A stretch of DNA of 64,000 bases from Alteromonadales bacterium alter-6D02. Its GTDB lineage: Bacteria > Pseudomonadota > Gammaproteobacteria > Enterobacterales > Psychrobiaceae. Shown here piece after piece: positions 2,810 to 5,739 of this stretch; positions within the stretch are counted from its first letter, which is position 1, and the number at the start of each line of letters is the position of its first letter. The notes beneath the pieces were generated by a model that worked only from the letters and a program-made list of their open reading frames with translations, was not told the DNA's origin and searched no databases. The stretch lies in contig PIZK01000021.1 of assembly GCA_002835545.1 (NCBI GenBank), forward strand, positions 62,001 to 126,000, read 5' to 3'. Position numbers and translations under genes: made by a program.

Positions 2810-3991
2810 TTAACTAGCGATAAAGTAGATGCCATAACCCACTATTAATGCCGGTACGGAGGAATATAATGTCGCCACCAATGCCGCTTTAGGAGCCAAA
2901 GCGATTGCAGGAAATAAAGCATCACCATCATTTGACATGGCATTAGCAATGAGGGCACTAAAGGGAACAATTCCTTGGATATATAGAGTAGTCACTAATA
3001 TTTGTGGACCGCAGCCCGGTAACAACCCAATCGCCATACCTATTAATGGGGCCAAAATAGCGTAGTTAGTAAACCACTGCCTTAAGTCTAAACCTAATAA
3101 GTTGACACAAAGTTCGTAAAATATAAAAGCAACAACAACCCAAGTTGTAACAAAGTGAGTATCTTGAATGACTTTATTTAATCGAGAGTAAGGGTCGGGC
3201 TTATCATCTTCACAAGCAAAGGCTTGGTAATCTTGCCCAGGGGATGCAATAGACCATAAACAAATAACAATAAAGGCCGAGACAGCGCCAAACCACACCA
3301 CATACTGCTCAATGGCTGGAGATATAACATCAAAATTAAATTGAAACGCAATCAATAAAGCTAAAACAAGAGAAGGGGTTAATAAAGTACGCCAAAAAGT
3401 TCTAGCCACCTTAAACCGCTTACTATCTTGAATGGCATGACAAGTATGAACAGGAATAGCTTTGGAGTTATCAGGCTGCAAGTAGTTTTCTGGATGAATA
3501 GCATTAACAACATACCCACATACCGCCCCAACCATTAGACCACTCACCATAATCATAACCCCTTCAATGGGTTTAGTCGCGAGTAACAAAAATGCAGCGT
3601 CGCCCATCGTCGCCACTAAAACCGCAACGACAGAACCAAAACTAGCCTGCCCTTTGGTAAACTGAGTAACAACAATAATAGCCCCACCACAACCGGGCAA
3701 AGCCCCTAGAAATGCGGCTAATGGTGCCTCAAAATGAGGGAAATTTTGCCTGACGTGAGCGAGTTCAAGCCATTGATAGCGCCCAACAAAGAAATAATAA
3801 AAGTAAAGTGTCGCAGCAACAAAGACACTGACCTGTAGAAACGCGTCAGCTAGCGATTGCAAAACAACATTTTGCATGCTGGGAATACAAGCAAGAATTA
3901 TCAAAGCCAATGGTAAAACTGTGCGCTTTATTGCTAGAGGAAATGTAATGCGCTGCAATCGCAGTCGTAACGGGTCAGTTGTTGTGTTCAT
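2810..3991 (-). CDS. Putative ~10-TM manganese/heavy-metal transporter (ArsP_2-like)
   Basis: Hydrophobic polytopic membrane protein of about 393 residues. It has two similar halves, each with an LPGCG motif: LPGCGGAIIV near residue 98 and LPGCGPQILV near residue 324 (counted from the start chosen here). Each motif is followed about 30 residues later by an acidic M(G/N)DAxF-like segment (ATMGDAAFLL and SNDGDALFPA). This fits families labelled putative manganese transporter or 10-TM heavy-metal exporter. The frame is open to a GTG at 4030 and an ATG at 4024, but both lie inside the large Fur-like palindrome at 4012-4051. I therefore prefer the ATG at 3991, just downstream of it. Metal-responsive control is inferred from that palindrome; ion and direction of transport are not proven. 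Confidence 0.75.
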   Translation of the reverse strand: MNTTTDPLRLRLQRITFPLAIKRTVLPLALIILACIPSMQNVVLQSLADAFLQVSVFVAATLYFYYFFVGRYQWLELAHVRQNFPHFEAPLAAFLGALPGCGGAIIVVTQFTKGQASFGSVVAVLVATMGDAAFLLLATKPIEGVMIMVSGLMVGAVCGYVVNAIHPENYLQPDNSKAIPVHTCHAIQDSKRFKVARTFWRTLLTPSLVLALLIAFQFNFDVISPAIEQYVVWFGAVSAFIVICLWSIASPGQDYQAFACEDDKPDPYSRLNKVIQDTHFVTTWVVVAFIFYELCVNLLGLDLRQWFTNYAILAPLIGMAIGLLPGCGPQILVTTLYIQGIVPFSALIANAMSNDGDALFPAIALAPKAALVATLYSSVPALIVGYGIYFIAS

Positions 3992-4011
3992 ACACACCAC
4001 ACAGTTAGTGT

Positions 4012-4051
4012 TAATAATTCTCATTAACACTACAGTTAATGAGAATTATTA
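4012..4051 (-). promoter_or_regulatory. Perfect 17-bp-arm palindrome with Fur-like boxes
   Basis: Arms at 4012-4028 and 4035-4051 are exact reverse complements separated by 6 nt. Each arm contains AATAATTCTCATTA, close to classical Fur boxes with a TAATTCTCATT core. The element sits just upstream of the start chosen for the metal transporter on the minus strand. A double Fur (or Fur-family Mur) operator is the simplest reading; a leader-RNA hairpin is an alternative, since transcribed it would form a 17-bp stem. Confidence 0.7.
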
Positions 4052-4077
4052 TCAATACTTAAGTGAGGCATTTAATC

Positions 4078-4117
4078 AAAAAAAATCCGAAGTTGCTAAG
4101 AGCTAACTTCGGATTTC
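4078..4117 (-). terminator. Rho-independent terminator after prfC
   Basis: On the minus strand the stem AAATCCGAAGTT / AACTTCGGATTT is followed by a run of eight T, about 42 nt past the prfC stop codon. It lies between prfC and the palindrome of the metal transporter gene. Confidence 0.85.
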
Positions 4118-4158: not shown

Positions 4159-5739
4159 TTAGTTTTCACGTGTCTCACGGAAAGTAATTTCAGGGTAACG
4201 CTCATAAGCTAAGTTTAAATTAACTCGTGTCGGCGCGATGTAAGTTAAGTTATCACCACCATCAAGCGCTAGGTTATCGTAAGCTTTCTTTTTAAACTTC
4301 TCTAATGCAACGTTATCATCGCAGCTAATCCAACGGGCTGTCGCTACGCTAATTGGTTCATAGATAGCTTCTACTTTATACTCTGCACGAAGGCGCGCAA
4401 CAACCACTTCAAACTGAAGTATACCCACAGCGCCTAAGATTAATTCATTTGAGCGTAACGGTCTAAAGACCTGTACAGCGCCCTCTTCCGATAGTTGAAT
4501 CAAACCTTTTTGTAGCTGTTTCATCTTCAAAGGATCTTTTAATAAGATCCGACGGAACATCTCTGGAGCAAAGTTAGGGATACCAGTGTATTTAAGCTTT
4601 TCACCTTGAGTGAAAGTATCACCAATTTGAATCGTTCCGTGATTGTGTAGACCAATGATATCACCTGCAACCGCACCATCGGCTTGAGCACGGTCACCCG
4701 CCATGAAAGTAAGTGCATCAGAGACATTAATATCTTTACCAATACGGACATGATTCATTTTCATGCCTTTTTTATACTCGCCTGAACAAACGCGCATAAA
4801 TGCAATACGGTCACGATGTTTAGGATCCATGTTTGCCTGAATCTTAAACACGAAGCCTGTGAACTTCTCTTCCGTTGCTTCAACCTCACGCTGTTCCGCA
4901 ATACGATTAACTGGTGCTGGAGCCCAATTAACGATGCCATCAAGCATATGGTCGACACCAAAGTTACCCATCGCGGTACCAAAGTAAACCGGGGTTAGTT
5001 GACCTGCTAAGAACATTTCTAGATCGAAAGGATTACAAGCACCTTCGATAAGTTCCATTGATTCACGCAATTCTTCAGCGTAATGACCAATGGCTTCATC
5101 TAATTCAGGGTTATCTAACCCTTTAATCACCCGTTTTTCTTGAATCGTGTGACCCTGACCTGTTTTATAGAGAACTGTCTCTTGAGTTAGCAGGTTATAA
5201 ATTCCCTTGAATTCTTTACCCATACCAATTGGCCAAGTGATCGGTGCACAAGCAATATCAAGGACATCTTCAACTTCATCCATCAGCTCAATAGGATCAC
5301 GTGTATCGCGATCTAGCTTATTCATAAACGTCACGATAGGTGTGGTACGTAAACGCGTAACTTCCATCAGTTTAATCGTTCGAGCTTCTACACCCTTTGC
5401 TGCATCAATCACCATTAAACATGAATCAACGGCAGTTAAGGTACGATAAGTATCTTCCGAGAAATCTTCGTGTCCAGGGGTATCAAGTAGATTAACTAAA
5501 CAGTTTTTGTAAGGGAATTGCATTACCGATGTGGTTACTGAAATACCACGCTCTTTTTCCATTTCCATCCAGTCAGATTTAGCATGCTGGCCAGACTTTT
5601 TACCTTTAACTGTACCCGCTTTTTGTAGGGCTTGTCCGAATAATAAGACCTTCTCAGTGATGGTCGTTTTACCCGCATCGGGGTGCGATATAATCGCAAA
5701 AGTACGGCGTTTATTCACCGAATCAGCAAAGGTTGTCAT
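4159..5739 (-). CDS. prfC: Peptide chain release factor 3 (GTPase)
   Basis: Translational GTPase that recycles RF1/RF2 from the ribosome after peptide release. G-domain motifs are complete: SHPDAGKTT (18-26), DTPGH (86-90) and NKLD (140-143). The switch I region with [10 protein letters not shown] is also present. At 526 residues it matches E. coli RF3 (529). The ATG at 5739 begins [20 protein letters not shown], typical of the family. It is transcribed alone and ends in a strong hairpin terminator at 4078-4117. In E. coli prfC also lies close to holD-rimI and yjjV, as here. Confidence 0.97.

Follow-up and report, generated by a model that had tools for sequence, protein, structure and literature searches.

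What is the role of the long inverted repeat that lies just upstream of the minus-strand MntX/ArsP_2 gene in the window, the whole 64-kb stretch of Alteromonadales bacterium alter-6D02 DNA analysed here? The evidence in hand comprises the sequence itself, the family of the gene, the conservation and pairing of boxes in relatives, the presence of a Fur gene and searches that turned up none of the alternative regulators looked for. Taken together, these point to Fur, which very probably controls mntX through this palindromic element, a predicted two-box operator that brackets the promoter. The coordinates of the features are collected in Table 1.

The inverted repeat and its transporter gene

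The left arm, TAATAATTCTCATTAAC, is the exact reverse complement of the right arm, GTTAATGAGAATTATTA, over 17 bp, and the two are separated by the six nucleotides ACTACA. The preliminary description spoke of a 40-bp perfect palindrome; the arms are indeed exact, but the spacer interrupts it. Among the perfect inverted repeats with loops of up to 20 nucleotides in the window it is the longest, six having arms of at least 12 bp. When the window was replaced by 20 first-order Markov shuffles, one yielded any such repeat (two, with 12-bp arms), and on this basis a chance origin for the 17-bp arms was rejected. Exact RATAATTCTCATTAAY is found in the whole genome at these two arms only; at up to two mismatches it occurs in 32 places (30 besides the arms), barely above the 23 found for the backwards control. 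An overlapping inverted repeat with 10-bp arms, TAGTGTTAAT-N7-ATTAACACTA, occupies positions 4006–4032 and covers box 2.

The product of the mntX-like gene scores far above the PF11449 (ArsP_2) cut-off (440.8 compared with 32.5 bits) and also matches NF037962 (239.4, cut-off 100). It is the one ArsP_2 protein found in the genome, and an ArsP_2-type gene is missing from four of the nine genomes of the family, some of which are incomplete. The names attached to this transporter family are in conflict, being 'arsenic efflux protein' in NCBIfam, 'heavy-metal exporter' in Pfam and 'MntX manganese importer' in the literature; a Neisseria manganese exporter is also named MntX, but is placed in another family (LysE, DUF204) in the excerpted text of PMC9936198. 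A second, C-terminal fragment of this transporter family (L019; G001 contig 197, 4020–4181) is found in one own-genus genome, some 2.5 kb away from the complete gene.

The longest open reading frame begins at a GTG that falls within the palindrome, and the doubt already cast on this start is one that we share: with transcription predicted to begin near 4020, ATG 3991 is the more probable choice. Strong conservation, in an alignment of matched segments, begins at about residue 22 counting from ATG 3991, so that conservation cannot settle the start codon. On the upstream side, the hairpin that precedes the palindrome is likely to separate prfC from mntX as a terminator; it is absent from the terminator scan because the loop limit of that scan is 8 and the hairpin loop is 10.

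Table 1. Positions of the features in the window, with one group of repeats at orthologous loci.
Feature	Position	Strand	Remarks
mntX-like gene	2810..3991	-	PF11449 ArsP_2; probable start ATG 3991, preferred to GTG 4030
Fur-like box 2	4009..4028	.	promoter-downstream; 19-mer 4010-4028, 15/19
Interrupted palindrome, 40 bp	4012..4051	.	arms 4012-4028 and 4035-4051, spacer 4029-4034
Predicted mntX promoter	4027..4055	-	by analogy with orthologues and by inference
Fur-like box 1	4035..4054	.	promoter-upstream; 19-mer 4035-4053, 16/19
Hairpin then U run, likely prfC terminator	4083..4116	-	inverted repeat and sequence
prfC, peptide chain release factor 3	4159..5739	-	upstream neighbour of mntX
AAAGTGCAAC/GTTGCACTTT repeat, orthologous loci	44 to 152 bp before match start		L037, L040, L044, L046, L047, L049, L051-L055

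Box pairs and predicted promoters in the window and in orthologues

Each arm of the palindrome contains AATAATTCTCATTA and is itself contained in one 19-mer resembling a Fur box. These two 19-mers have the top two 19-bp Fur-box scores of the window, scored with the letters of the classical Fur consensus. In the 7-1-7 form, box 1 (TGAGAATTATTATCA, 4040–4054) is exact to TGANAATNATTNTCA at all 12 specified positions and box 2 (TGTTAATAATTCTCA, 4009–4023) has one mismatch (11/12). The box centres are 31 bp apart, corresponding to about three helical turns.

Exact TGANAATNATTNTCA occurs at four sites in the 4-Mb genome, box 1 among them; the remaining three adjoin argR, a Na+/H+ antiporter gene and a GST gene, none of them a classical iron gene. 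With up to one mismatch there are 55 sites, compared with 30 for the pattern read backwards, and a one-mismatch site precedes a TonB-receptor plug gene. With so limited an excess, and exact sites beside non-classical genes, Fur control is poorly proved by a matching box on its own. Among the 50 sites listed of the 55, read by eye, two within 45 bp of each other are seen at mntX only. The exact box at the Na+/H+ antiporter-family gene (L103; G000:C8:116507-116521) lies just upstream of it.

Orthologous promoters were drawn from the best 80 of 557 confirmed loci, a set weighted towards close species, whose counts are therefore not independent. To these 80, all of which entered the box counts, were added the window, L012 and, with a longer stretch, L017. 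L022 and L010 denote one gene, as do L024 and L011. A box was counted if it matched at least 10 of 12 positions within 220 bp before the start of the match, and a second box if it lay within 45 bp. Boxes of this quality precede 72 of the 80 loci, compared with 38 of 830 Markov controls, and are found before all 32 Vibrionaceae loci, 34 of 36 from Pseudoalteromonas, both own-genus MAGs and 4 of 10 others; none was found before the remaining eight of the 80 (L048, L059, L087, L089, L090, L093, L094 and L100). A cruder count of 19-mers gave at least 15/19 in 39 of these 80 loci, compared with 1 of 400 base shuffles.

A second box is present in 17 of the 32 Vibrionaceae loci among the best 80 of 557, compared with 1 of 830 controls, at a spacing of 26 bp (seven loci), 27 bp (nine) or 32 bp (one); 26–27 bp corresponds to about 2.5 helical turns. 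Lowering the second-box threshold to 9/12 adds, within the same 80, 7 of 36 Pseudoalteromonas loci, with a spacing of 16 bp in six and 39 bp in one, and one of the 10 other loci; the controls beside this count had a box in 42 of 830 and a second box in 3 of 830. Comparison with orthologues bears out the preliminary description in its two Fur-like boxes at a metal transporter gene. In the own-genus orthologues examined, four in number (the two MAGs, L012 and L017), a single box is present, with no second one inside 45 bp.

Perfect arms made by the boxes reach 18 bp in L082 (Vibrio sp. CAU 1672), in a palindrome whose sequence differs from that of the window, 17 bp in the window, 15 bp in L074 (uncultured Photobacterium) and 13 bp in L083; arms of at least 15 bp are seen in two of the 17 Vibrionaceae loci with paired boxes among the best 80. 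The preliminary description had looked to orthologues for the palindrome as a check on its reading, and the answer is divided: L082 and L074 have perfect arms of their own, whereas the single boxes of the own-genus orthologues led us to reject the exact arms as a genus-conserved element. That a long inverted repeat upstream of such a gene is not necessarily an operator is illustrated by L070, in which a repeat with 15-bp arms is terminator-like. An inverted repeat around AAAGTGCAAC ... GTTGCACTTT is seen in 11 of the 36 Pseudoalteromonas mntX loci of the same set.

The predicted mntX promoter of the window has a good −35 match, TTGATA at 4055–4050, and weak −10 options, TGTAGT (spacer 15, 4/6) or TAGTGT (spacer 17, 3/6). 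A consensus promoter scan listed no minus-strand promoter at the palindrome, only two plus-strand promoter-like sites, compared with 1.0 expected. The predicted position agrees with that in orthologues, by analogy with which transcription would start near 4020, within the palindrome. In the orthologue scan, for which the −35 position was fixed at the start of box 1 by construction, a −10 with 5–6 of 6 matches lies 16 or 17 bp further on in 14 of the 17 paired-box loci (best 80 of 557); over all 73 box loci such a −10 is found in 34, compared with 17 of 365 controls in which the DNA after the box was shuffled. The best −10 lies at 16 bp in every pair except that of L083, where it is at 17. It ends beside box 2 or one base inside it, with the exception of L079, in which box 2 lies 5 bp further.

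This arrangement suggests how the element might work. Metal-loaded Fur (with Fe2+, perhaps also Mn2+) would bind box 1, over the −35 hexamer and the promoter spacer, while Fur at box 2 would cover the region after the −10 together with the transcription start. Under metal sufficiency, Fur on both boxes would exclude RNA polymerase from the mntX promoter; in iron shortage its release would allow mntX to be expressed and manganese, or a similar divalent metal, to be imported. The exact arms would then be two near-identical facing boxes, possibly perfected by quasi-palindrome correction during replication. Counting against this model are the 31-bp spacing, compared with the usual 26–27 bp, the weak −10, the single box in own-genus orthologues, the lack of a box before eight of the 80 loci and the missing gene in four of nine family genomes.

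Regulators and alternative explanations

The symmetry could be purely mutational in origin, a Fur box having acquired a template-switched inverted copy that has no role of its own. This explanation, which does not conflict with control through box 1, we consider unlikely. Given two Fur boxes, symmetry between them becomes less surprising, and its extent was gauged by comparing 13 distinct Vibrionaceae boxes and their flanks in 78 pairs, each in both orientations. Of these 156 comparisons, one gave a perfect run of at least 17, two of at least 15 and ten of at least 12; with near-identical boxes kept in, 52 of 992 had a run of at least 17. The window arms match better than nearly all the distinct-box pairs, and since a run of 17 is seen in only one of 156, a mutational second arm, or quasi-palindrome correction, is plausible. 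The four own-genus relatives, with a single box each, also favour such an origin and indicate that the perfect symmetry is this species' own. Against a second copy devoid of function, the paired boxes are recurrent in the Vibrionaceae loci of the best 80, 16 of the 17 pairs being spaced at 26–27 bp, and this recurrence, with the different perfect palindrome of L082, suggests a use for two boxes.

It is considerably less probable that the element serves a different metalloregulator that senses manganese or zinc (Mur, MntR or Zur). One precedent is the mntX of the alphaproteobacterium Roseovarius nubinhibens, a gene of the homologous transporter family that is reportedly under the control of Mur, a FUR-family repressor. 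Manganese import by this MntX homologue is cited in the excerpted text of PMC13274385, where VP1164 of Vibrio parahaemolyticus responds both to zinc limitation and to manganese excess. In the present genome, however, for which assembly completeness is 100%, only two FUR-family (PF01475) proteins were found: Fur (NF006999, 264.5 bits compared with a cut-off of 146) and a second protein closest to Zur, at 159 bits just under the cut-off of 167. No match named Mur is among those listed for these two proteins, and a search of the genome for PF02742 (MntR-type) proteins found none, the E. coli control being positive. On these PF01475 and PF02742 searches a separate Mur, which the preliminary description had raised, was rejected, as was a separate MntR. 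The Zur-like protein does offer a candidate, but the boxes agree with the Fur consensus at 16 and 15 of 19 positions and seem unlike the gammaproteobacterial Zur site. In contrast to R. nubinhibens, then, the window genome combines Fur-type boxes with a single Fur, which may also sense manganese.

Least credible is an RNA hairpin in the mntX leader, reached by read-through from prfC or from an upstream start and acting as an attenuator or stabiliser, since it needs transcription from upstream and the predicted promoter starts inside the palindrome. An RNA hairpin was among the readings of the preliminary description, and the minus-strand RNA, if transcribed, would fold stably (17-bp stem, −25 kcal/mol, z −5.29, with none of 200 shuffles as good), but no U run follows the hairpin, the likely prfC terminator precedes it, and in paired-box Vibrionaceae (best 80 of 557) it is the Fur consensus that recurs, perfect arms of at least 15 bp being confined to two of 17. 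Membership of an Rfam family was rejected, as the four matches, with E-values up to 1, were all under the gathering score.

Metal response and comparison with known systems

We return to the Fur operator. On the sequence evidence, the window element is very likely of an ordinary kind, a known type of Fur switch in remarkably neat form, and its two-box layout is recurrent but little described; the titles and abstract openings covered by a literature search leave paired Fur boxes at mntX unmentioned. A close described parallel is iucA P1, a two-site Fur operator according to the excerpted text of PMC3788343. There, a single metal-uptake promoter has Fur sites at both its −35 and its −10 regions, as is predicted for mntX in the window; the window boxes, however, are exact inverted arms with centres 31 bp apart. 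Vibrionaceae mntX promoters share with the window an orthologous gene and paired boxes bracketing the predicted promoter, and in L082 and L074 also the perfect arms, but differ in their closer spacing (16 of 17 pairs), their stronger −10 (14 of 17, both among the best 80 of 557 loci) and the sequence of the arms.

Expression data from vibrios speak both for and against the model. In V. cholerae, mntX (VC1688) is raised (log2 4.65) in a VCA0231 mutant along with many siderophore and haem iron-uptake genes; the mutant is that of an AraC-type regulator, not a fur or iron experiment (PMC7600106, Table 1). A riboflavin comparison gives the same gene a value of −1.127 (excerpts of PMC5816637). Manganese excess induces VP1164 of V. 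parahaemolyticus about 12-fold, and copper excess and zinc limitation induce it as well; homologues are named MntX manganese importers, a function doubted for VP1164 (PMC13274385, in the part available). Such a pattern is not predicted by a simple manganese-importer story, and we infer that disturbed iron loading of Fur is a possible common cause of the VC1688 and VP1164 responses.

Control by Fur would link a transporter family whose names range from arsenic or heavy-metal exporter to manganese importer with the iron response, in a bacterium that its relatives place among the gammaproteobacteria and whose genome, when searched, yielded neither an MntR-type nor a Mur nor an Nramp protein (the Nramp search of the genome had a positive E. 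coli control). If Fur alone controls mntX, manganese entry would track iron status. As a tentative generalisation, more doubtful than the Fur operator itself, MntX promoters of marine Enterobacterales may carry a dedicated, promoter-bracketing double Fur box of near-fixed spacing that acts as a two-dimer clamp, so that, where MntR and Mur are lacking, one iron sensor alone would control the entry of manganese into the cell, the arms being repeatedly perfected by quasi-palindrome correction. The recurrent box pair offers a ready test of two Fur dimers acting together.
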